Shown in pieces: positions 806 through 13,010 of a DNA stretch of 64,000 nt (positions are counted from its first letter, which is position 1; each line of letters begins with the position of its first letter). The position numbers and the translations under genes were made by a program. The DNA comes from Oecophyllibacter saccharovorans. GTDB taxonomy: Bacteria > Pseudomonadota > Alphaproteobacteria > Acetobacterales > Acetobacteraceae. The stretch spans positions 248,001-312,000 of the forward strand of contig NZ_CP038143.1 of the NCBI RefSeq assembly GCF_006542375.1. Direction: 5' to 3'. Under the pieces are notes generated by a model. The model had not been told where the DNA came from. It saw only the letters and a list, made by a program, of their open reading frames with translations, and searched no databases.

Positions 806-1411
806 ATGGTCCAAAATCCTCCCGTCCCGGCCCATTGGAAAGGTTTCCAGCCCCAACCGGGGGATGCGCTGCTCATCGTCGACATGCAGGCAGATTTCAT
901 GCCAGGCGGTGCCTTGGCCGTGCCGGAAGCCGACCGGCTCATCAAACCCATCAGCCGCATGGCAAAGAATTTCGCAACTGTCATCGCAACGCGTGACTGG
1001 CACCCAGACGATCATTGCTCCTTCACCGCTGAAGGCGGCCAATGGCCTGTACATGCCCGCGCCGGCAGCCCGGGCGCCGCTTTCGCGCCAGGCCTGGTTC
1101 TGCCGCCCCGCACGCTTATCTGGTCCAAAGGATCAGAAAAAACGGCAGAGGCTTATTCAGTTTTTCAGGATGAAAACGGCCAGGCCTCGGGATTTGCGGA
1201 CAAGCTGGCTGACTATGCCCCCAAGCGCCTTTTCATCTGCGGCGTGGCGCTTGAATACTGCGTGCAGGCCTGCGCGCTGGACGCGCTGAAAGCAGGCGCC
1301 AAGGCCGGCTACAAGGTCTGCCTCTTTCCCCAGCTCTGTGGCAGCCTGCATCCCCCAGCATTGCCCCTGGCCCGACTGGAAAGGGCCGGCGTCGTGCTTT
1401 ATCGCGTCTGA
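806..1411 (+). CDS. pncA: Nicotinamidase
   Basis: Cysteine hydrolase that converts nicotinamide to nicotinate for NAD salvage in the cytoplasm. The isochorismatase-like fold is shown by the start of strand 1 with the catalytic Asp (ALLIVDMQADF, Asp26), the metal-binding segment TRDWHPDDHCSF (D..H..H pattern), a Lys in IWSKGSEK, and the nucleophile Cys at about residue 152 in GVALEYCVQACALDAL. These match the Asp-Lys-Cys triad plus metal site of PncA. At 201 residues it has the normal family length. The 3' end overlaps the convergent glycoside hydrolase gene by 13 bases. A related amidohydrolase is possible but the metal motif favours PncA. Confidence 0.88.
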   Translation: MVQNPPVPAHWKGFQPQPGDALLIVDMQADFMPGGALAVPEADRLIKPISRMAKNFATVIATRDWHPDDHCSFTAEGGQWPVHARAGSPGAAFAPGLVLPPRTLIWSKGSEKTAEAYSVFQDENGQASGFADKLADYAPKRLFICGVALEYCVQACALDALKAGAKAGYKVCLFPQLCGSLHPPALPLARLERAGVVLYRV

Positions 1412-2934
1412 TCCAGCCAGCCACCCTGGAAGCCTGCTTTCTTCAAGGCTGCCTGAATGACGGGATTGCGCTTCATGACGTTCCAGACGAAACCGTTCCG
1501 CCAGTTTGCAATCATCAGCAGAATGGGTCCCTGATCGATGCCAATCTGCTGAGGATCGGCCCAGAAACCTTCAGGCGTGACGTAACTTGGATTGAAAGCA
1601 TCCACAAAGCCGTAACGGTTGTAGATCCGCTTGCCATAATGCGCTTTCATATCTTCAAGTGTCGGCAGTGCGATCTCCGGAGCAAAGGCGATTGACCCCC
1701 CTGCAGCTGTCGGGGCGATCGTGCCATCATCACTGACGTAATCAGCGCCGGCACCACGTGCGTTATAGGCCATGAAGTGGCGTTGCACCCCATCCACCCA
1801 CCGGGTGCCCTCCCCTGGTCCATCACTGGCTGTCAGGCCCCAGAGCGTGGCGCCGTAATCTTTCCAGTGACCGGGATTTCTGCGGGCATAGGCCAGCTGG
1901 GCATAAGCTGCCTTTCGCCCGTTGGAGAAATAGTCATTGTGGTGCTGGCGGTTGAAGTCGTCCTGCAGGTCGCGAAAATCAATCCAGGATTCGGAATACT
2001 GGTGACCGAACAGCGGGGCGAAGTTCAGGAACTCATGGCCTTCAAACGTTTTCCACTGCCCTGCGAAAGTGGCCGTCCAGGCCTGCCAGGTGGAAGCAGG
2101 CAGAGGATGGGTCGGCGAGCCCAGCGCAAGCAGATAGAGAATCAGTCCTTCATTGTACCCGCGCCATTCACTGCTCAGGAAATGAGAGGTGGGCGTGGGT
2201 GACCAGCCCATGTTCAGCAATGGTGGGTGCGGCTCCATCCACGGCCAGTCCACACGCCCGTACAGTGCCGCAGCAGTCCGACGGATTTCCTGCTCCTGCG
2301 CGTTTTCCTGATCAAAATAGGATTGGGAAAACAGCACGCCGACCATCAGCAAGGCAGTGTCGACGCTCGACAGCTCTGACCAGTCCGCAAAACGCAAACC
2401 CGTATGCGGATTGAGGAAATGATAGAAAAACCCCCTGTAGCCGGCCGCCCCGAGAGCTGAGTCGTTCTGGGGCAAGGCAAGCAGAAAGCGCAGCGTGCGC
2501 AACGTGCGCTCGGCCGCCTGCTGGCGGGTGATATATCCCTGATCAACGCCGATCCCGTAAGCCGTCAGCCCGAAGCCGACCGAAGCAATGCTGGCCGCCC
2601 CCTCCGGCAGGGGCGCGCGGTCGGGGATCAGACCGTTTTCAGGATTAGCCGTTTCCCAGAACCAGTCGAACGTCCGTCGTTCCAGATCTTCGACAAAAGC
2701 CCGGTCTGCTGGTGCCAGATCACTGAATTTCGCCGGGCCCTTCCCTGGAGCCAGCGGCTGTGTCTGCGCTTGTGGCGGCGCCTGATCCTGGGCGCGAGCG
2801 TTACTGCCAGGATAAAGCACCAGGAAAGCGGCTGCCAACCCGGCCGTTCCACGCAGGAGAACGTTCCTGACCCTGGCGAGAGTGCGTATATGTGGCGCAG
2901 CAGAAGGAAGGCTGATTACGGAAGATGGGGCCAT
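1399..2934 (-). CDS. Glycoamylase-domain glycoside hydrolase, exported
   Basis: A 511-residue protein with a hydrophobic N-terminal segment (LLRGTAGLAAAFLVLY) ending in NARAQ, which fits a signal peptide into the periplasm. The rest matches the glycoamylase-like family (PF10091, related to GH144 beta-1,2-glucanases), starting with LERRTFDWFWETANPENG and running through GFGLTAYGIGVDQGYI, YSESWIDFRDLQDD and the late GPILLMIANWRNGF. Known members act on beta-1,2- or other glucans; the substrate here is not visible. It starts only 15 bases after the stop of the C39-ABC exporter gene, so it is almost certainly in the exporter operon. That placement is unusual for a glucan hydrolase. Confidence 0.85.
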   Translation of the reverse strand: MAPSSVISLPSAAPHIRTLARVRNVLLRGTAGLAAAFLVLYPGSNARAQDQAPPQAQTQPLAPGKGPAKFSDLAPADRAFVEDLERRTFDWFWETANPENGLIPDRAPLPEGAASIASVGFGLTAYGIGVDQGYITRQQAAERTLRTLRFLLALPQNDSALGAAGYRGFFYHFLNPHTGLRFADWSELSSVDTALLMVGVLFSQSYFDQENAQEQEIRRTAAALYGRVDWPWMEPHPPLLNMGWSPTPTSHFLSSEWRGYNEGLILYLLALGSPTHPLPASTWQAWTATFAGQWKTFEGHEFLNFAPLFGHQYSESWIDFRDLQDDFNRQHHNDYFSNGRKAAYAQLAYARRNPGHWKDYGATLWGLTASDGPGEGTRWVDGVQRHFMAYNARGAGADYVSDDGTIAPTAAGGSIAFAPEIALPTLEDMKAHYGKRIYNRYGFVDAFNPSYVTPEGFWADPQQIGIDQGPILLMIANWRNGFVWNVMKRNPVIQAALKKAGFQGGWLDQTR

Positions 2935-2949
2935 GATAAATCCTGACGG

Positions 2950-5226
2950 TTATGCCGGACTGCCAGACAGACCGCCGGCAGTGGGGCCAGGAGCGGAAGG
3001 CGCCTGAGGCGACGGCGCGCCTCCGGCAGGCGGCCGGGGGCCATTAGTGCCAGGCTGGGCAGCAGCCCCACCGCCGACAAGCGCCCCCAGATTCAGGCGC
3101 ACAGAAGCATTTTCAATCGTTTCCAGACGATGGGCCACAATAACGCGCGTGATCTTGAGTTCATCAAGAAAGGCCGAAATCTTTCTCTCACGCTCTGAAT
3201 CCAGATTACTGGTCGCCTCGTCAAGAAACAGAATTTTGGGCCGCCGGTAAAGGGCACGGGCCAGGATCATGCGTTGGCGCTGCCCGCCTGAAAGTGTGCT
3301 TCCCATCTCGCCCACCAGGGTCTCAAAGCCCATGGGCATGCGTTTGATGTCGTCGAGAATCTGGGCGTTCTTGGCACATTCCTCCACCCAGGGCATGTCG
3401 ATATTGTCTGCAAAGCCGGCAATGTTTTCAGCAATGCTGCCCGAAAGCAGGATATCATCCTGCAGGACGCCTGCGATCTGGCTGCGATAGGCCTCGATGT
3501 TATTGGGACCCAGGGCCTGGCCGTTCCAGTAGATTTCCCCCTCTTCCGGATGGCTCATCCCCATGAGGATGGAAAGCAGGGTGGATTTGCCGCATCCGGA
3601 AGGACCGGTGATCGCCAGGCTCTCGCCGGCTTCGATGGTCAGGTTGAGATCCTTGAATACCCAGGAATCTTCCTTGCCGTAACGATAGCCAAGATTGCGG
3701 CATTCCAGCAGGGGCACCCCTTCCACTTCAGGCGGCGGTCCCTGGGGCAGCAGCTTCATGCCTGAAGTGCCATCAGGACCGGCCGGTCCGTCAGAGGGCA
3801 CCAGGTCAACTTCCCCTTCATTGGTTTCGGATTTCGCCAGCGCGATATCGGACAGGCGGTCCGTATGCACTTTGAGGTTGCGGATCTTGAAGGCAGCGGA
3901 AATAAGATTGCCCAGACGGCTGGAAAACTGGTCACGGTAGCTGAGAAAGGCCACCAGAACACCCACGGTCATGCTGCCGTCAAGGACCATGTTTGCCCCC
4001 AGGATCAGCATCAGCAACCGGTCAAAACCGAAGATGATATCATTGGCGCGCGAGAAGATCAGATCGTAGCGCTGGATCTTGAACTTGGCGTTGATGCTGT
4101 CAATCAGCTTGTTGACCCAGCCGACCTTCCGCTTTTCCTCAAGACCGAGCAGCTTGATGCTGCGAATGCCGCGGAGGGTCTCAAGGAACTGGCCCTGGCG
4201 CGCGGCGTCATGGACGAGGACTTCCTGCGACATTTCCCGGTAGGGGCCGTAATAGATCACACGGACCAGGATATCGATCAGCGAGGATGCCCCCACGACC
4301 AAGGCAAGCCACTGACCGTAGATGATGATCATCACCAGCATGCCGACCGCCATCAGCCCGTCCATGATGACCTGCACCACATCAGTGGTGAAGGCCTGCT
4401 GAATGGCGCCCAGGCTTCCGAAACGCGACAGGATGTCACCCGCGCCACGCTTGCTGAAATAATCCTGCGGCAGGCCGAGCAGATGACTGAGCAGGCTGAC
4501 ATTCCATTGAATGGAGATCCGCGTGGACATGAGCATGACTGTCCAGGAGCGGAAGGTGGAGATAACCGCCTGCACGAGCAGCAGAATCCCCATGCCGACA
4601 GCGATCGTCCACAGCAGGGAATGATCGCTTGTCGTCAGCACTTCATCAATGATGACCTGCGAAAGCATCGGGTTGATGAGGGCGATGACCTCCAGCCCCA
4701 GCGACAGAGCGCCCAGCGCCAGCAGCGTGCCCTTCAGAGCGCCCACATGGCGGAACATGTCGCGGATACTCAGCAGATGGCGGTCATCGCGCTTCTCGAA
4801 TTTCGCCGTCGGCGTCAGCTCCAGCGCCACACCGGTGAAATGCTTGGAGACCTCGGGATAGGTCAGCTTGCGCGGCCCCTGCCCCGGATCAATGATCTCG
4901 ACGTATTTGTCGCCCGCTTTCACCAGCACGACGAAGTGATTGAAGTCCCAGTGCAGGATGCAGGGCACGCTCAGCTTGCTCAGGGAGTCCAGATCAAGCT
5001 TGAGCGGACGCGCCTGCAGATCAAAGCGCCCAGCCAGATGAATGAGCGTGCGCAGTGTCAGCCCGGAGCCTGAAAGCCCGGCCTGTCGACGCAGGGTGGA
5101 GATATCTATCAGATGGCCATGCGCATTGAGGATCATGGCCAGGCAGGCCAGGCCGCATTCAGCATTTTCCGACTGCAGGATGGTCGGAATCTTCTTGCGG
5201 AAGCTGGTAACGATCGGCTTGAGCAT
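2950..5226 (-). CDS. Peptidase-C39 ABC exporter (PCAT), bacteriocin processing and export
   Basis: A 758-residue inner-membrane exporter that should remove double-glycine leaders and export the mature peptide. An N-terminal C39 peptidase domain (about residues 10-140) has a complete active site: Gln18 and Cys24 in QSENAECGLACLAM, His97 in HWDFNHFVVL and Asp113 in IIDPGQG. Six transmembrane segments follow (about 165-440), then an ATPase with Walker A GPSGCGKST (near 542), signature LSGGQRQR (near 647), Walker B ILFLDEATS and the H-loop VIVAHR. The last 45 residues are a Pro/Gly/Ala-rich tail not typical of the family. The start codon overlaps the HlyD stop by one base (TGATG), so translation is coupled. 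The likely substrates are the two leader peptides near 11.1-11.8 kb. Confidence 0.95.
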   Translation of the reverse strand: MLKPIVTSFRKKIPTILQSENAECGLACLAMILNAHGHLIDISTLRRQAGLSGSGLTLRTLIHLAGRFDLQARPLKLDLDSLSKLSVPCILHWDFNHFVVLVKAGDKYVEIIDPGQGPRKLTYPEVSKHFTGVALELTPTAKFEKRDDRHLLSIRDMFRHVGALKGTLLALGALSLGLEVIALINPMLSQVIIDEVLTTSDHSLLWTIAVGMGILLLVQAVISTFRSWTVMLMSTRISIQWNVSLLSHLLGLPQDYFSKRGAGDILSRFGSLGAIQQAFTTDVVQVIMDGLMAVGMLVMIIIYGQWLALVVGASSLIDILVRVIYYGPYREMSQEVLVHDAARQGQFLETLRGIRSIKLLGLEEKRKVGWVNKLIDSINAKFKIQRYDLIFSRANDIIFGFDRLLMLILGANMVLDGSMTVGVLVAFLSYRDQFSSRLGNLISAAFKIRNLKVHTDRLSDIALAKSETNEGEVDLVPSDGPAGPDGTSGMKLLPQGPPPEVEGVPLLECRNLGYRYGKEDSWVFKDLNLTIEAGESLAITGPSGCGKSTLLSILMGMSHPEEGEIYWNGQALGPNNIEAYRSQIAGVLQDDILLSGSIAENIAGFADNIDMPWVEECAKNAQILDDIKRMPMGFETLVGEMGSTLSGGQRQRMILARALYRRPKILFLDEATSNLDSERERKISAFLDELKITRVIVAHRLETIENASVRLNLGALVGGGAAAQPGTNGPRPPAGGAPSPQAPSAPGPTAGGLSGSPA

Positions 5227-6524
5227 CAGTGACGTTTCCCTGACAGCGAGATGACGTCATCAGCCATCGAAATGATCGGATCGAACAGCCACTGATAAAG
5301 CTTGCGACGGTCAGTGGCGATGTCAGCCTCAACAGCCATGCCGGGTTGCAGGCGCTCCTTCTTGCCATAGGCACGGACGAAATCCTGGTCCGGCAGCACG
5401 CGCACGCGGTAGACATCCTGCGGGGGATGCTGAGCCGCTGCCCCCTTGCCCTGGGGGGCCACCGAGCCTGCCTGATCAGGCATGGGGGCGCGCGTCACTT
5501 CAGTGACCGTGCCCTTGTAGAGGCCGAATTTCTGATAAGGAAACGGCGCGAATTTCAGCAGCACCCGCTGACCCGGCCGCAGGAAGCCGATGGCATGGCT
5601 GTCGACATAGAGTTCCGCCTGGAGAGTAGCGTTGTCGGGCAGCAGCGTGGCCATGGGCTGGCCTACCGATACGCGCTGACCCACATAAGTGCGGATACCG
5701 TCAATCACGCCTGCAACAGGAGCGACGATCAGCGTTTCCGCCTGGCCGCGTGCCTGGGTGATCTGGCGGTTGAGATCAGCCAGGCGTACGTCAATGTCGG
5801 TCACGTCCTCCTGGACCTTATAGGGATGCCGGTCGATTTTATACTGCAGGTCATTGATCTGACCGCCCGTCTCCACCATTGAGCGCAGGGTCTGGGAATG
5901 GGTGTTCATGAACTGCACGTAAGAGAAAAGCTGGCTCTGGAACTGCCCTTCCGAGACCAGATGCATGCCGATGGCTGTGCGCATCTCCTGCATGGCATGT
6001 TCGATCAGCGGCAGGGAGGTGTTGTCACGCTGGATCTGGGTGCCAAGCATCTCCCGCTGCTTCTGGAGCGTGACGAGTTCCTGTTTGAAGGAGGCCAGCT
6101 CTATCGGTGCGTCCGTCAGCAGAAGCTTGCGGCGCGCGGTCAGGAAATCGCGCTCATTCAGAAGGTGAAGCAGGGCCTGCTTGCCCGTCGGGCCGGCTGA
6201 AGACCAGCTTTCCACATCGACCGTATAAAGGGCCTGGCCGGCGTGAACGCTCATGCCTTCCTTGATATGAGCCGTAGTGACCACACCAGCCTGGTCGGCG
6301 GTGATCACGACCAACCCGCCTGGCGGCATCAGCTGGCCGGTGGCATGGACGCGACGGGTATAGCTGCCGAAAATAACATAGATGATCACGCCGAGAACCA
6401 GCGCCATCGTGCACCAGGCGGCGATCTTGCCTGATACCGGCTCGATCTCCAGGGTATCGCCGATCCAGGCTTCCTGTCGCCATTTCAGAGCTTCCGTACG
6501 AAAGAGCGGTTGCCCGTTTGCCAT
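5226..6524 (-). CDS. HlyD-family membrane fusion protein (CvaA-like adaptor)
   Basis: Periplasmic adaptor joining the inner-membrane ABC exporter to TolC. A short cytoplasmic N-terminus is followed by one membrane anchor (about residues 38-60, ALVLGVIIYVIFGSY), a lipoyl/barrel-sandwich half (GGLVVITADQAGVV), long helical hairpin segments and the closing half VAPVAGVIDGIRTYVGQRV, then the beta-barrel domain. At 432 residues it has the usual size of CvaA-type adaptors. A ribosome site GGAAAGG lies just upstream of the ATG. It is the first gene of the minus-strand export operon and is divergent from the TolC gene, with which it should assemble. Confidence 0.93.
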   Translation of the reverse strand: MANGQPLFRTEALKWRQEAWIGDTLEIEPVSGKIAAWCTMALVLGVIIYVIFGSYTRRVHATGQLMPPGGLVVITADQAGVVTTAHIKEGMSVHAGQALYTVDVESWSSAGPTGKQALLHLLNERDFLTARRKLLLTDAPIELASFKQELVTLQKQREMLGTQIQRDNTSLPLIEHAMQEMRTAIGMHLVSEGQFQSQLFSYVQFMNTHSQTLRSMVETGGQINDLQYKIDRHPYKVQEDVTDIDVRLADLNRQITQARGQAETLIVAPVAGVIDGIRTYVGQRVSVGQPMATLLPDNATLQAELYVDSHAIGFLRPGQRVLLKFAPFPYQKFGLYKGTVTEVTRAPMPDQAGSVAPQGKGAAAQHPPQDVYRVRVLPDQDFVRAYGKKERLQPGMAVEADIATDRRKLYQWLFDPIISMADDVISLSGKRH

Positions 6525-6694
6525 GCTTTACCTTTCCAGCGTATTTTGAGACACGTTTACCATCAAGAGGCACTCCCCTGACAGCCATCCCGCCAGAATT
6601 TTCGGACCGGGTCTTCATTTACCTTAAAATCAATAATTCGTATACCAGTATATATGTATGATTTTAACTTCCTGAGAGAGTCGAAGAGACCTTG

Positions 6695-8101
6695 ATGAGC
6701 AGAAAAGTCCTTTTTTCCACCCTGACCGTAGCGGCCTGCCTCCCGCATCTCGCGAGTGCTGCGCCTGTGCCGGTTATAAGGAAACAGATTGACCTGCGAC
6801 AGGCGCTCATATCGGCTTATCAGACCAATCCCGAGCTTCTGCGCCAGCGCGCCCTGCTGCGGCAGACGGATGAAGGCGTCTCACAGGCGCATTCAGGCTG
6901 GCGCCCCACGATCACCGGCAATGCCACGGCTGATTATAACCAGACGAATTACGTCTCGCACATCGCAAGCCCCCTTTCAGGAAAAAACTTCCGCTATACC
7001 CAGCGTTTTGCAGCGCCTGGCTACAATACCGGCGTGACGGTTTCCGAGCCCATCTTTCAGGGGGGCAAGACCGTTGCCTCGACCCGCAAGGCCGTCAATC
7101 AGGTCTATGCCGGGCGCGCGCAACTGATCAACACCGAACAGCAGGTGTTCCTGGAAACGGTGCAGGCTTACGTGAATCTTCTGCGCAGCCGCCAGCTGCT
7201 GGAACTCAACCGCCAGAATGAGATCACCCTGGCCAAGCAGGCCCAGCTGGCAGAAGAACAGTTTCAGTACAACCAGAACACACGCACGGACGTGCTGCAG
7301 GCCAGGTCCCAGCACAAAAGCGCACAGGCCGACACCCTGCAGGCCCAAAGCGATTACGCCATTGCCAAAAGCCAGTTCCAGAAGGTCGTGGGGTTTATGC
7401 CGCCTGACAATGTGGTGCCCGCCCGGCCCCTGGCTCTGCCCCTGCGCAGTTCGCAGGAAGCGGAAATGCTCGCCCTGACGCAGAACCCCAATATGATCGG
7501 CGCCAAATATGCGCTGGAGGCGGAAAAGGCCAATCTGAAGGTCGCCTTCTCCGCGCTGCTACCCAAGATTTCCATGCAGGGAAGCTACAATTACGGCGTC
7601 AACCAGGATTCGTCGAAATTTACCCAGGACAGTGAATACGTCGCCATCCAGGCCAATCTGCCCATTTATCAGGGCGGCGCTGAATATTCCCAGATCCGTG
7701 CTGCACGACAGGGAATCAGCGCAGCGCAGCAGGCCCTGGCCGAGCAGAGGCGCGATGTCATCCAGAGCACGGTTGCGGCCTGGCAGAAATTTGCGGCCGA
7801 TACTTCCAAATATGTCGATAACCAGAAATCCGTGCTGCTTGGCGAAGCGGCTTTCAAGTCCATTCAGCAGCAGGAGCTGCTAGGCGTGCGCACCACCTTT
7901 GAAGTGCTGCAGCAGCAGCAGATTCTCTTTGGCCAGCAACGTGCCTTGATCCAGAACCACGCTGATCTGGTCATCGATTCCTATGCGCTTGCTGCCCAGA
8001 TCGGCCAGCTTACGGCTGAAGGCCTGAAGCTCCAGACCCCCCTTTACAATCCGCGTGCCAATTACGACCGGGTGAAATGGAAGATGATCGGCACCCGCTG
8101 A
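6695..8101 (+). CDS. TolC-family outer-membrane efflux protein
   Basis: Outer-membrane channel of a type I secretion complex. It begins with a signal peptide (TLTVAACLPHLASAAP) and contains the two repeats of the TolC fold, for example QIDLRQALISAYQTNPELLRQRALL and VSEPIFQGGKTVASTRKAVNQV, then the second repeat NLPIYQGGAEYSQIRAARQG and a terminal LGVRTTFEVLQQQQ. The ATG at 6695 is preferred over an in-frame TTG immediately upstream because the purine-rich stretch GAGAGAGTCGAAGAGA precedes it. It is divergent from the HlyD/ABC operon with a 170-base AT-rich promoter region between them, so the three components are probably co-regulated. Confidence 0.93.
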   Translation: MSRKVLFSTLTVAACLPHLASAAPVPVIRKQIDLRQALISAYQTNPELLRQRALLRQTDEGVSQAHSGWRPTITGNATADYNQTNYVSHIASPLSGKNFRYTQRFAAPGYNTGVTVSEPIFQGGKTVASTRKAVNQVYAGRAQLINTEQQVFLETVQAYVNLLRSRQLLELNRQNEITLAKQAQLAEEQFQYNQNTRTDVLQARSQHKSAQADTLQAQSDYAIAKSQFQKVVGFMPPDNVVPARPLALPLRSSQEAEMLALTQNPNMIGAKYALEAEKANLKVAFSALLPKISMQGSYNYGVNQDSSKFTQDSEYVAIQANLPIYQGGAEYSQIRAARQGISAAQQALAEQRRDVIQSTVAAWQKFAADTSKYVDNQKSVLLGEAAFKSIQQQELLGVRTTFEVLQQQQILFGQQRALIQNHADLVIDSYALAAQIGQLTAEGLKLQTPLYNPRANYDRVKWKMIGTR

Positions 8102-8377: not shown

Positions 8378-9934
8378 TCAGCCAGCGACAGCCAGACGCT
8401 CGGGTTGCACGGACAGGTCATTTTCACCCTGCAGCAGATACGGGCCAGCTGCCAGGATTTCAATAGCCACCAGCTGGGAAGCAGCGTTTTTGTCTGCAGA
8501 CAGCGGCAGCCAGGCGCGACCGTTGGTCCAGCGGCAGGGGGTCTGCTCAACCACATCCCAACCCGCAAGATCTGCCTGCTGCAGATGGGCGCTTAGATCA
8601 CGGCTTTCATCACCAGCGAATCCGCGCACCTGGCCGACCAGAACACCTAGGTGGCGGCGGTCATCAACAAAGGGGCCGATAGTCTGGTCCGGGCGGGCGG
8701 TGCGGGAGCACACATACACACCGGTAGCGGAAGCCGGCACCTCGAAGGTCACCCAGTTACCATTGCGGCGCTGGGCAGAGAGGCGCTGACCATCCTTCGT
8801 CTCCAGGTACAGATCCGGCTCGGAAGACAGCACGGGCTGAGCCGGCGCTGCGTAACCGGCTGCCTGCGCACGGGCCTGCAGGCGTTCGTAAAGCGGCTGG
8901 ACAAAAGCGGTCTCGACGCAGAGCGGGGCGGCCGCATCATCCCAGCTCTTGCTGCCCACGGAATGGATCTGGAAGGCCGTGCCGGCCGGCATCACGTGCG
9001 GGGTGTCCAGATAGCTTTCGGTCATCGCGCCGTTGGCGTTGATCACGGCGTGGTCCTGCAGCTCGACGTGATAGACATCAAACGCACCCTGGCGGACATC
9101 ACGGACGATGCTGGAGCCGTTGACCAGCATGCGGGCCGGCACGAAGCGGCCATCAAAATACATGCAGTGCTCGGGCGTGACGGTCAGGTCCTGCATCGGC
9201 ACGTTGTCACCCAGCGAATCCTTGCGGAAGGTCACGGGCTGTTCGTCAAGAGAAGCCTGGGAAACCGTCTTGCGCACCAGGGCCTGAAGCGGCGCGAACC
9301 CCTTGCGCCCCTCCTGCCAGGTCGCCACCCGGTCACCCGCCTTCAGGGACTCGACCGCGCGATATCCTTCGGCGGTCTCGATCAGGCTACCGGCCAGAAA
9401 GCAGACAACCACATCCGGCACACCGGAAGTAGCAGCATTCATGCCGGTATCATATTCAGCCCCCTGGTTAGGAGTATCATGCCCATCCGGTAGATTCTGC
9501 TTACCAGTATAGGCATTGGCATCCATATTCTTTACAGAATCTGTCGAAATGCCAATATAGTTATCTCCTGCTACCAGAGAACTCGTACCTTCAGAACCCT
9601 GCGGAGAAAAGATGAGAATGGTGGCACCATCTGGAGTTGTTTTATACCCTACAAAAGCCATCTGCATGTCCACCTCTCCGCCGGACCCATTGACAACATG
9701 AGCTGTCACTATTTGGCCCACTTGAGTGATGGTAGTAGCATTATCAAATGTGATTGATTGAACATCATAGGTTTGATTAAGAGGACCGTACTTTACTTTA
9801 GGATCGCCACTCCAGTCAAAGCCATCGCCTTGACCGTTCGGTCCATTATAGGTGTAAGTACCCATCGCATGGTCCTGGCCATTAGGAGAAGTAGCATCTC
9901 CGAATGTCGTGCCCGCTGGAATCGTTGCAGCCAT
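8378..9934 (-). CDS. Hint_2-domain protein with acquired N-terminal domain
   Basis: 518 residues in three parts. Residues 1 to about 175 form a domain shared with the next gene upstream (10250-10843): FDWSGDP, TILIFSPQG, NAYTG and QNLPDG recur in both. A Hint (hedgehog/intein) module starts at the Cys of VVVCFLAGSLIETAEGYRAV and carries LKAGDRVATW, the TPEHCMYFDGRFVPA histidine motif and HVELQDHAVINANG. A C-terminal region of about 200 residues contains DDRRHLGVLVGQVRG. Hint_2 proteins are common in Acetobacteraceae and are usually linked to secreted or surface proteins; self-cleavage at the Cys is inferred. No double-glycine leader or signal peptide is seen. The ribosome site is GAGGATTTTG before the ATG. 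Confidence 0.85.
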   Translation of the reverse strand: MAATIPAGTTFGDATSPNGQDHAMGTYTYNGPNGQGDGFDWSGDPKVKYGPLNQTYDVQSITFDNATTITQVGQIVTAHVVNGSGGEVDMQMAFVGYKTTPDGATILIFSPQGSEGTSSLVAGDNYIGISTDSVKNMDANAYTGKQNLPDGHDTPNQGAEYDTGMNAATSGVPDVVVCFLAGSLIETAEGYRAVESLKAGDRVATWQEGRKGFAPLQALVRKTVSQASLDEQPVTFRKDSLGDNVPMQDLTVTPEHCMYFDGRFVPARMLVNGSSIVRDVRQGAFDVYHVELQDHAVINANGAMTESYLDTPHVMPAGTAFQIHSVGSKSWDDAAAPLCVETAFVQPLYERLQARAQAAGYAAPAQPVLSSEPDLYLETKDGQRLSAQRRNGNWVTFEVPASATGVYVCSRTARPDQTIGPFVDDRRHLGVLVGQVRGFAGDESRDLSAHLQQADLAGWDVVEQTPCRWTNGRAWLPLSADKNAASQLVAIEILAAGPYLLQGENDLSVQPERLAVAG

Positions 9935-10003: not shown

Positions 10004-10049
10004 CCAGAAATTAACCTGTTTCTCAAATAAAAAGTGTCTTAAAAACAGG

Positions 10050-10081
10050 AATACCCAGAGAACCGGAGCTCTCTGGGTATT
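10050..10081 (-). terminator. Terminator copy A of the bacteriocin/Hint locus
   Basis: AATACCCAGAGA (10050-10061) pairs with TCTCTGGGTATT (10070-10081) around an 8-base loop. On the minus strand it is followed by CCTGTTTTTAAG, a uridine tract. The same stem with the same flanks recurs at 11000-11032, so the 3' region has been duplicated. Confidence 0.7.
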
Positions 10082-10122
10082 TTCCCAGCGTACCTAGATT
10101 TTCAGCCAGGTGGCGCGAAGAA

Positions 10123-10270
10123 TCAGGCCTGATTCAAACTTGACAGTGACCAATAAGCCTCAAGATTTTCTTGAAGAAAATATGAAGCCCAAGGATGAAT
10201 AATCTCAAAATCATCCTTTAATTCTTACTGCAGGTATTCCAGCCATTTTTCAGATGAAAATGATTCCTGA
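10123..10270 (-). pseudogene. Decayed ORF downstream of the stand-alone domain gene
   Basis: On the minus strand, in a frame shifted from the preceding gene, the codons read SSEKWLEYLQ, a TAA stop (10225-10227), then ELKDDFEIIHPWASYFLQEN and on to a TGA at 10123-10125. The 33-codon segment after the TAA has no usable start codon and a protein-like composition. Its stop codon and the following DNA align with the stop and 3' flank of the first bacteriocin gene. It could be the remnant of a lost small gene or of a longer form of the preceding protein. Function unknown. Confidence 0.35.
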
Positions 10271-10843
10271 AGGAACGTCGGAGATAGCAGCATTCATGCC
10301 GTCATCGTATTCAGCCCCCTGATTAGGCGTGTTCGTCCCATCGGGGAGATTCTGCTGACCGGTGTAAGCATTGGCGGACATGGCGCTGAGGGTAGAAGAA
10401 GCAATGCCAACGTATTTGTTACCCGGCACCAGGGTTGTTGGACCATCCGTCGTCGCCCCGCCCTGCGGAGAGAAGATAAGAATGGTAGTACCATCCGGAG
10501 TTTCGTTAAAGCCAACATAAGTCATAACTACATCGAAGACTTCACCGCTGGTGTCATCCACCACCTGGGTGTTCACCGGCTGGCTCAACTTGGTGATTTC
10601 CGCACCAACCTTCTGGCCGTCCTTGGTGATTTCCCCACTATCAGGGAAAGTAATTGAAGCGACAACAAGCCTTCTGCTCATAGCACCGATATTGATTCTG
10701 AACTGGGGGTCGCCACTCCAGTCGAAGGAATCACCCTGACCCTCCGGCCCTTCATAGACATAAGTACCCAGAGCATGTTCGCTACCGGTATTTGAGCTGA
10801 CATCATCAGCGAAAACGACAGACGGTCTAATAATAGCAGTCAT
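10250..10843 (-). CDS. Stand-alone paralogue of the Hint protein's N-terminal domain
   Basis: A 197-residue protein of unknown function. Nearly its whole length aligns with the first 175 residues of the Hint protein downstream: GTYVYEGPEGQGDSFDWSGD against GTYTYNGPNGQGDGFDWSGD, and PDGTTILIFSPQG, QNLPDGTNTPNQGAEYDDGM against their counterparts. It ends DVPSGIIFI, at exactly the point where the partner enters its Hint module (GVPDVVVCF). It is acidic, has one obvious hydrophobic residue cluster only at the end, and lacks a signal peptide or double-glycine leader. It is lower in GC than most genes here. The ribosome site AAGGGAAACC precedes the ATG. The domain may be secreted by the neighbouring exporter, but that is inference. 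Confidence 0.8.
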   Translation of the reverse strand: MTAIIRPSVVFADDVSSNTGSEHALGTYVYEGPEGQGDSFDWSGDPQFRINIGAMSRRLVVASITFPDSGEITKDGQKVGAEITKLSQPVNTQVVDDTSGEVFDVVMTYVGFNETPDGTTILIFSPQGGATTDGPTTLVPGNKYVGIASSTLSAMSANAYTGQQNLPDGTNTPNQGAEYDDGMNAAISDVPSGIIFI

Positions 10844-10946: not shown

Positions 10947-10999
10947 TCAGAATTGAAACTGCTGGGTATGAGGGAGCTGAACATGACTTCAAAAACAGA

Positions 11000-11032
11000 A
11001 ATACCCAGAGAGCCGAAACTCTCTGGGCATTC
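11000..11032 (-). terminator. Terminator copy B, end of the bacteriocin gene pair
   Basis: AATACCCAGAGAG pairs with CTCTCTGGGCATT around a short loop, about 40 bases after the stop of the first-listed bacteriocin gene. Minus-strand read-out continues into TTCTGTTTTTGAAG. It is a near copy of the element at 10050-10081. Confidence 0.75.
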
Positions 11033-11072
11033 TTCTAACTCACCTTGCTTTTCAGCACAGTGAAGGAAGAAA

Positions 11073-11426
11073 TCAGGTCAGGGAGCTGCCGCCACCCGCA
11101 CCGGCATTGGCCGGGGAGATCGTGCCGCTGGTGATGCCCTGCATGATCTGCTTCTGGACATCAGCGGTGCCGGAGTTACCGTTAACCGCACCCAGGATCG
11201 CACCACCGATAGCACCGTAGGCGGCGCCGTAGATCACGCCAACCAGGTTGCCGACGGGGCCCAGGCCGACCTGGCCGCCGTTGCTGCCACCGAAGCGACC
11301 ACCGATGATGGCGCCGGCTTCACCGCAATCAGCAGCCATGTTGATGGCGCCAGCGACGGAGTCCACGAAACCCAGGGAGAAACCACCGGAGACTTCTTCA
11401 ACTTCGAAAATGTTAAGTTCCTGCAT
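11073..11426 (-). CDS. Double-glycine-leader bacteriocin precursor, peptide A
   Basis: A 117-residue precursor. The first 15 residues MQELNIFEVEEVSGG are a classic double-glycine leader (M-R/Q-E-L...E..VSGG), as in microcin V and class IIb/IIc bacteriocins. Cleavage after Gly15 would give about 102 residues. The mature part is rich in Gly and small hydrophobics with repeated GxxxG spacing (GAIIGGRFGGSNGG, GNLVG, AIGGAILGAVNG), a single Cys in AADCGEAG and a Ser/Gly-rich end. Such peptides usually insert in target membranes. It follows peptide B in one transcription unit (78-base gap) and has AAGGATTATCCTC before the ATG. Family placement is strong; target and activity are unknown. Confidence 0.88.
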   Translation of the reverse strand: MQELNIFEVEEVSGGFSLGFVDSVAGAINMAADCGEAGAIIGGRFGGSNGGQVGLGPVGNLVGVIYGAAYGAIGGAILGAVNGNSGTADVQKQIMQGITSGTISPANAGAGGGSSLT

Positions 11427-11458
11427 GAGGATAATCCTTCAAAAAATGTTTTCTGGTT

Positions 11459-11483
11459 CTTTCAGGCCTAATAGACCTGAAAG
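11459..11483 (-). promoter_or_regulatory. Hairpin between the two bacteriocin genes
   Basis: CTTTCAGG (11459-11466) pairs with CCTGAAAG (11476-11483) around a 9-base loop, and a second small stem TTTCCC-TTA-GGGAAA (11488-11502) lies next to the stop of peptide B. Neither is followed by a uridine run on the minus strand, so they look like mRNA-processing or stabilising hairpins, not full terminators. They could set the ratio of the two peptides. Confidence 0.4.
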
Positions 11484-11504
11484 TTAATTTCCCTTAGGGA
11501 AAAA

Positions 11505-11834
11505 TCAGATGCCGCCGCCGGTCACGATGCTGCCGCTGACGATGCCCTTAACGGCATTCGCCTCAACCTGAGCTTCACCGGACTGACCGTTCACGAAGCC
11601 CTGGGCCACGCCAGCAATGGTGCCACCGATGGCGCCACCGACGGTGCCAACCAGGTTGCCGAACAGGCCGATGCCGATCACGCCGCCGTTGCTGCCACCG
11701 AAGCGACCGCCGTAGATGGCGCCGGTCCAGCCGGAGATCATGCCATAGTTGATGGCACCGGCGAGGGAATCAGCGAAGCCCTGGCTCAGGCCACCGGAGA
11801 CTTCTTCAACTTCGAAAATGTTAAGTTCCTGCAT
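11505..11834 (-). CDS. Double-glycine-leader bacteriocin precursor, peptide B
   Basis: A 109-residue precursor and the first gene of the pair. It has the same leader, MQELNIFEVEEVSGG, encoded by identical DNA to peptide A, giving a mature product of about 94 residues. The mature part shares GAIYGGRFGGSNGG, GNLVG and GGAIGG with peptide A and is also Gly-rich with GxxxG repeats, but has no Cys and carries a Trp (SGWTGAIYGG). Two non-identical GxxxG peptides side by side is the hallmark of two-peptide bacteriocins. GGAGTATTGAA precedes the ATG. The exporter with matching C39 peptidase is 5 kb away. Whether the two peptides act together is untested. Confidence 0.88.
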   Translation of the reverse strand: MQELNIFEVEEVSGGLSQGFADSLAGAINYGMISGWTGAIYGGRFGGSNGGVIGIGLFGNLVGTVGGAIGGTIAGVAQGFVNGQSGEAQVEANAVKGIVSGSIVTGGGI

Positions 11835-11959: not shown

Positions 11960-12350
11960 TCTTAACAGAAGCTAATGAGATTTGAAAAGAGTTTTTTAGG
12001 AATTGTTAACCACAAATAGTTCACATTTCACATTACTGTTCTGCAGATCAGGAAAATTTACTTAGTCAATATAAGAAATATTAAAATAAAACCAAAATAA
12101 ATTATGGAATTTCATATTTCATTTACATAATTATACATGAAAAATTATGACAATTATGGGGAAATTTGAAGACAGTTCTAGTTCTCTCCTATATTCAACT
12201 GAAATTCCTCATGCCATTTAATTATAATATACCTGAATAATATTGCTTAACATTCTGTCATGAAACGGAAAATATGTATGAACATTCTCAAAATAAAGTC
12301 ATACCAGACGAATTTATTCCTAAAACATTAAACCCATTTTCAGCGCGTTT
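11960..12350 (-). other. AT-rich non-coding stretch upstream of the bacteriocin genes
   Basis: A run of about 390 bases very rich in A and T (for example around 12061-12130), in contrast to the GC-rich flanks. No ORF above about 25 codons with a plausible ribosome site was found on either strand. It may hold the promoter and regulator sites of the bacteriocin genes; the 130 bases next to peptide B (11835-11960) are GC-rich leader sequence. Strand given is that of the presumed target genes. Confidence 0.5.
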
Positions 12351-12418
12351 TTCTCAATCCAGGCCAAAAAAAATTCACCTGGAAGGCAATTTTTCTGTTT
12401 TTTTCCGTTTTTTCTGGT

Positions 12419-12624
12419 GATTCGCAGGAAGAATCGGGCTTTTCAGACCCTTTTAGAAGCCCTCCATTCCCCACCTGGAAGGAGCCAAAAGGGCTTTTTG
12501 CAGCCTGATTCGCCCTAAATGCCCTACGGACACGGACCATTTTGCCGAATCCTGACCCTGATTCGCTCTTTTCGACCGAACGAATCAGCGCAAATCCGCA
12601 AACGTCCAGTTCAGGACCCGATTC
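12419..12624. repeat. Cluster of seven GANTC sites
   Basis: GANTC occurs at 12419, 12431, 12507, 12547, 12560, 12582 and 12620, seven times in 206 bases where less than one is expected by chance. GANTC is the CcrM methylation site of many alphaproteobacteria. An open frame of 130 codons across it on the minus strand is not protein-like. The rest of the gap to the tRNA shows nothing recognisable. Confidence 0.55.
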
Positions 12625-12853
12625 AAGCCGGTCTAGGAGGCCCTCTGCCCCTGCATGACCTGAGCTCCACACCCTGATGAGGACTGGCTCATAATAAGAG
12701 AGATGGGCGAATCGCTTTTGCTCTGCATGCACCCGCTACCATCTGGCTCCGCCCCGTATGAGGGGCAACGCAAGCAGCAGAGAACACACCTGATCCCTCA
12801 AGGGATCGGCCAGCACGCAGATAAAAACAGTTTTGCAAAATCAGGAAAGGCAG

Positions 12854-12930
12854 TGGCGCGCCCTGCTGGATTCGAACCAGCGACCCACAGCTTAGAAGGC
12901 TGTTGCTCTATCCAGCTGAGCTAAGGGCGC
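12854..12930 (-). tRNA. tRNA-Arg (anticodon TCT)
   Basis: The minus strand folds as a 77-base cloverleaf: acceptor GCGCCCT/AGGGCGC, D arm GCTC/GAGC, anticodon stem ACAGC/GCTGT around loop CTTCTAA (anticodon TCT), T arm GCTGG-TTCGAAT-CCAGC, discriminator G and an encoded CCA. Confidence 0.97.
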
Positions 12931-13010
12931 GAAAACCTGCATGGGCGCTCAAAGGCCAGCAGGAAGAAACAACTGAACCAGGGCTTAGCGCCGAGAGGGT
13001 TCAGGATCTC

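Follow-up and report, generated by a model that had tools for sequence, protein, structure and literature searches.

We wanted to know what kind of system is encoded by two adjacent genes for small double-glycine (GG) leader peptides, found in a 64-kb stretch (the window, to which all coordinates refer) of a 1.94-Mb genome of the family Acetobacteraceae. The initial annotation had read them as a two-peptide class II bacteriocin, and the results presented below point rather to class II microcin-like peptides with a putative antibacterial action.

Two paralogous GG-leader peptide genes

The annotated open reading frames were recovered at the same coordinates, 11073..11426 (117 aa) and 11505..11834 (109 aa). 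Since both are on the minus strand, a correction to the initial reading, the 109-aa gene, named here pepA (11834->11505), comes first and is followed by pepB (11426->11073). A strong intrinsic terminator (10999..11032, minus strand, fold -24.2 kcal/mol, z = -6.0) is found just downstream of pepB, so that the two genes look like one transcription unit; no promoter was identified for them. Both precursors begin with the same 15-aa leader, MQELNIFEVEEVSGG, located at 11790..11834 in pepA and recognized by the leader pattern at 11382..11426 in pepB (both minus strand). The two leader sequences (15 codons, 45 bases) differ by one synonymous change and by no amino acid, and the GG motif predicts C39 cleavage after Gly15. 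The mature peptides would thus be of 94 aa (8.8 kDa, pI 4.7) for pepA and of 102 aa (9.4 kDa, pI 4.2, with one Cys) for pepB, with calculated average masses, if unmodified, near 8,790 and 9,386 Da. They are rich in glycine (30% and 27%, respectively) and contain 15 and 14 GxxxG repeats, about twice the 7.8 and 6.6 obtained when the residues are shuffled at constant composition (p 0.0002 and 0.0008, respectively). The mature parts had been described as related but not identical, with GGRFGGSNGG and GNLVG in both. These motifs are indeed shared, but the peptides are closer than claimed, being full-length paralogues that are about 60% identical and align end to end. Only pepB of the two ends in GAGGGSSLT.

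The leader is associated with a C39 export machinery

As annotated, genes for a C39 exporter, an adaptor and a TolC protein lie in the same locus, 3-9 kb from the peptide genes. The C39 peptidase ABC exporter (PCAT; 2950..5226, minus strand, 758 aa) is encoded by the only C39 gene of the genome, and its catalytic triad C24/H97/D113 is intact within 'ECGLACL', 'NHFVVL' and 'IIDPGQG'. The two other components are a HlyD-type membrane fusion protein (MFP; 5226..6524, minus strand, 432 aa) and a TolC-family outer membrane channel (6692..8101, plus strand, 469 aa) scoring above the TIGR01844 cut-off. The best NCBIfam match of the exporter is TIGR03796, with 485.6 bits and thus below the equivalog cut-off of 853.3. 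The product of a gene 15 nt from the exporter gene (1399-2934, minus strand) has a glycoamylase domain (PF10091) and an N-terminus resembling a signal peptide; this gene was not seen adjoining the exporter in relatives.

In the whole genome, the leader pattern matched only twice, at pepA and at pepB, while 397 genomes of the family gave 41 matches in 23 genomes and the reversed-pattern control gave 0, so the pattern is not a chance finding. A C39 exporter is present in 21 of the 23 leader-bearing genomes versus 109 of 372 others (Fisher p = 3e-9) and in 12/12 genomes containing the mature family of pepA and pepB described below (p = 1e-6), these statistics ignoring kinship between Acetobacteraceae genomes. 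Moreover, the four Bombella genomes without C39 are also without leader peptides. Altogether, the restriction of the leader to pepA and pepB, the single C39 gene and the co-occurrence across the family indicate that both peptides are very likely C39 substrates.

The mature peptides belong to a family of Acetobacteraceae

With pepA alone as query, the contig scan gave 0 matches, whereas with close relatives as queries it gave eight named loci. Members of the mature family were found in Acetobacter farinalis, A. orleanensis, an Acetobacter metagenome-assembled genome (MAG), five Bombella species, and four further genomes (G013, G040, G245 and G249). Seven glycines are invariant (26, 38, 42, 63, 71, 75 and 79 in pepA numbering), among which G63, G71, G75 and G79 form a 4-spaced glycine zipper; the C-termini are not conserved. 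The number of peptides per locus varies, with one in G245 (L027), G040 (L032), G249 (L094) and B. pluederhausensis (L041), two in the window, A. farinalis and the other Bombella, and three in G013 (L030). In the Bombella and Acetobacter relatives, dN/dS is mostly about 0.1-0.3 (for diverged pairs of Bombella pepX, dN 0.12-0.32 versus dS 0.85-1.5), showing that the family evolves there under purifying selection and therefore consists of functional genes. The second peptide of Bombella is 92-99% conserved between species.

Beyond Acetobacteraceae, a search of 385 genomes of the class with the family alignment returned only the window's own genome and one borderline match, and the PF19180 profile, which also misses the window's own peptides, had 0 matches in 398 genomes of the phylum. 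The initial statement that such systems are little described in this group agrees with the literature: BAGEL4 detected 0 bacteriocins among 22 genomes of Bombella (PMC9147383), a genus in which the family is nonetheless present, and a comparison of Commensalibacter mentions nothing beyond a 'bacteriocin exporter' COG shared by all genomes (PMC10149009). Gram-negative genomes have been screened for GG peptides by Dirix et al. 2004, as cited in PMC9746304.

Other families with unrelated mature parts have the same leader in the same bacteria. In G245, five tandem paralogous GG peptides with MREIS...VAGG-type leaders are encoded directly upstream of a C39/HlyD exporter (L100, 9720-11963, minus strand). 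A second, Cys-containing GG-peptide family with an AYAGYLAGxYN motif occurs in the Acetobacter genus group (L077, L078, L080, L082 and L083), some of these loci also encoding an exporter and a Hint protein of their own. In G262 (L084), GG peptides adjoin a C39-type exporter gene apparently split into several ORFs.

In profile searches against bacteriocin and microcin families, neither pepA nor pepB had a match above cut-off. Neither matched the MccV profile PF17508, to which a single relative had a match, below the cut-off (15 bits against 27, E 0.038). DUF5862 (PF19180), to which no function is attached, covers the glycine-zipper core of the family: the A. farinalis peptide is above its cut-off (34.6 versus 33.3 bits), pepB is below it (18.2 bits), pepA is unmatched, and 10/16 family members match at E < 0.1. 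The literature covered, mostly outside subscription journals, contained no mention of DUF5862, which is weak evidence of novelty. Three relatives matched NF038167 weakly (best E 0.0035). This family comprises the cyanobacterial CTB-family bacteriocins, which, like NHLP-type systems, also combine GG-leader peptides with C39 exporters; here, the exporter differs by its score below the TIGR03796 equivalog cut-off. Several members also matched PHROG 32251 (phrog_32251; best 3.7e-13, pepB 6e-5), and a phage or plasmid origin was rejected as relatives were absent from the phage, plasmid and IMG/VR records; both the matches and the negatives are weak because of the Gly-rich composition and the BLAST low-complexity filter. 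PADLOC gave no match, and a defence-system protein was likewise dismissed. No solved structure matched the peptides significantly. Since the AlphaFold model of pepA is of low confidence (pLDDT 54), the helical hairpin that it suggests is only suggestive.

The locus resembles class II microcin systems

Class II microcins have 15-18 aa leaders ending in GG or GA and are exported by PCAT, MFP and TolC (PMC10233263, PMC9746304). The leaders of pepA and pepB are of this type, and the genome encodes a C39 PCAT with its triad together with the MFP and TolC. Four of the five parts of the class II microcin layout, GG precursor, immunity, PCAT, MFP and TolC (PMC9746304), are thus present, the immunity part being the one absent. 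Class IIa microcins (MccV/colicin V, MccL, MccN and others) are alike in their GG leader of 15-18 aa, in being Gly-rich and unmodified, in their mature mass of about 5-10 kDa and in their PCAT, MFP and TolC export (PMC10233263, PMC9746304). Known microcins contain a mean of 23.8% glycine (PMC10233263, PMC9746304), and Xylella provides a precedent for tandem MccV-like genes (PMC10233263). The large size of the mature peptides had been noted in the initial annotation; 8.8 and 9.4 kDa are not odd for class II microcins, although they are at the top of their range (PMC10233263).

In contrast to class IIa microcins, pepA and pepB have no MccV profile match and no adjacent immunity gene, and their family has a constant Hint_2 neighbour and was found in Acetobacteraceae only. 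The conserved C-terminal Ser/Gly-rich motif of class IIb siderophore microcins is absent across the family, and no siderophore-attachment genes were found among the scanned neighbours. An immunity gene accompanies every verified class II microcin (PMC10233263), in general a small protein of 51-216 aa that is usually transmembrane, but no plausible coding ORF for a small transmembrane immunity protein was seen near the peptides, so that formal membership of class II microcins fails by this one feature. Also counting against a microcin are the acidity of the peptides, the lack of an above-cut-off family match, and the conservation of the second Bombella peptide, since many bacteriocins typically turn over fast. 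Weighing these points, we are inclined to think that the pepA/pepB system functions in the manner of class II microcins, and we prefer to call its products class II microcin-like peptides, with a putative antibacterial action.

The same results bear on the annotated two-peptide (class IIb) bacteriocin, in which pepA and pepB would be inactive alone and would form a pore together. As in Gram-positive systems of the lactococcin G type, two adjacent GG-leader genes encode peptides with GxxxG motifs, here with the same leader and apparently in one unit closed by one terminator. However, GxxxG motifs and adjacency alone do not distinguish such a bacteriocin from tandem class II microcins. Known class IIb peptides differ from pepA and pepB in mature length and acidity: those studied here are much longer and acidic. 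They are, moreover, paralogues over their full length and not dissimilar partners, no immunity gene is visible, and relatives carry one, two or three such peptides, without any fixed or obligate pair. For these reasons, we no longer regard the locus as a two-peptide bacteriocin, a reading that has become unlikely.

A Hint_2 protein accompanies the peptide family

Next to the peptide genes, a 518-aa protein (8378..9934, minus strand) is composed of an N-terminal passenger (residues 1-177), a Hint domain starting at Cys178 and containing TPEH (T253-H256), and a conserved C-terminal region of about 200 aa. It scores 119.1 bits with Hint_2 (PF13403; cut-off 28.4) and is the product of the only Hint_2 gene of the genome. 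Foldseek matched its Hint part to inteins and bacterial intein-like proteins (BILs), including the C. thermocellum BIL 2lwy and Tetrahymena BIL2 6y75, and the protein shares the Hint fold, Cys1 and TxxH with Hint_2/BIL proteins. In polymorphic toxins, the variable part is a C-terminal toxin located after HINT, and HINT is associated with export of the T2SS, T5SS, T7SS or TcdB type (PMC3482391). The 518-aa protein reverses this organization, the variable part being N-terminal and the C-terminal 200 aa or so conserved.

A Hint_2 protein is encoded near mature-family peptides in all 12 genomes where the contig permits assessment, namely the window's genome, G245, A. farinalis, the Acetobacter MAG, G013, G040, G249 and five Bombella; A. 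orleanensis is outside this count as a contig end cuts its locus. Two tandem peptide-Hint units are present in A. farinalis, with peptide-to-Hint gaps of 88 and 60 nt, and two units are also present in the Acetobacter MAG, while in Bombella the distance is about 4 kb. Given the Hint counts of the genomes, the probability of such proximity by chance in five independent genomes is about 6e-9, a rough and post hoc estimate. In Bombella (L031 and L033-L035), copper-resistance-type genes, multicopper oxidase-like and CopB-like by sequence alone, lie between the peptides and the Hint protein.

The combination of exporter, GG peptide and Hint gene is seen with unrelated mature peptides too (L078, L082, L106 and L107), but several other exporter loci are without a Hint gene. 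When ten of these Hint proteins were compared in pairs, the N-terminal passengers were similar in only 2/45 pairs and the Hint and C-terminal parts in 45/45, the passenger of one protein (L107) not being cleanly cut out as its Cys was not located by motif. By these comparisons, the passenger is exchangeable and the remainder conserved. We found no counterpart of the constant Hint_2 neighbour in the literature on described microcin systems, and no study joining a Hint domain, type I secretion and a bacteriocin in a search that covered few subscription papers.

This association raises another explanation, in which the peptides are exported by C39 but are not antibacterial and act with the Hint passenger at the surface, in a matrix, in signalling or in interaction with a host. 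It would account for the Hint_2 neighbour in 12/12 assessable genomes and beside unrelated GG peptides with exporters, for the missing immunity gene and for the slow evolution in Bombella, and Neisseria Nap GG-leader peptides mediate autolysis, a non-competitive role (PMC11798529). On the other hand, the hydrophobic glycine-zipper sequence, the variation in copy number and the patchy distribution suit toxins at least equally well, and profile searches revealed no known adhesin or matrix domain in the mature peptides. We hold this explanation to be possible, with the odds against it.

For the favoured microcin-like system, the following mechanism can be proposed. The C39 exporter of the locus would recognize both precursors through their 15-aa GG leader and cut them after Gly15, and the unmodified peptides of 94 and 102 residues would leave through HlyD and TolC. 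They would most likely insert, as helical hairpins with packed GxxxG faces, into the membranes of competitors, pepA and pepB acting as independent paralogues in a small arsenal and not as obligate partners. The Hint_2 neighbour would be part of the peptide module, and probably cuts itself at Cys178, releasing or attaching the exchangeable passenger, which may serve as a partner, a surface anchor or a protection. A stronger proposal, about which we are rather doubtful, is that GG peptides and passenger-Hint protein form one functional unit, where the self-cutting Hint would free or couple a peptide-specific passenger acting on behalf of its cognate peptide as receptor, anchor or immunity. If true, this would be a microcin-like system in which Hint-processed partners replace classical immunity proteins.

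To our knowledge, Enterobacteriaceae are the source of nearly all verified class II microcins. Acetic-acid bacteria, including bee symbionts (Bombella), would widen this range with a microcin-like family that has a dedicated exporter, and the family would supply candidates for competition in insect guts and fermentations. The constant Hint_2 neighbour could also make it possible to test what the many Hint proteins of these bacteria do.

Local history of the locus

Between the Hint_2 and pepB genes, a stand-alone ORF of 197 aa (10250..10843, minus strand) shares 50% identity with the passenger at the N-terminus of the Hint_2 protein and ends at the Hint boundary. This size is within the range of immunity proteins and the product is not membrane-like; a non-classical immunity protein could be encoded near the peptides. 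An 87-nt direct repeat is present at 10041-10127 and 10991-11077, each copy containing a terminator; the terminator at 10050..10081 (minus strand) is a second copy of the one that follows pepB. The passenger ORF is probably what is left of a second peptide-Hint unit. Most simply, a peptide-terminator-Hint unit would have been duplicated in tandem, giving an arrangement like that of A. farinalis, and one Hint/C-terminal part and one peptide would then have been lost. This history is inferred, as the stretch between 9935 and 10250 showed no detectable trace of a peptide or of a Hint domain.

Such a remnant is also what would be expected if pepA and pepB were decaying, non-functional paralogues in a degenerating locus, and the dN/dS of about 0.8 between their mature parts (dN 0.43, dS 0.54) goes in the same direction. 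Nevertheless, the reading frames of both genes are unbroken, their leaders and zipper glycines are conserved, purifying selection acts on homologues elsewhere and the exporter triad is intact, which makes decay very improbable.

Genes for tRNA-Arg and tRNA-Pro adjoin the locus, and a tRNA-anchored island was considered and set aside as no att-like repeat was found. Between pepA and these tRNA genes, the GC content falls to 0.44 at 12001-13000 versus about 0.60 in the flanks, possibly marking an insertion boundary.
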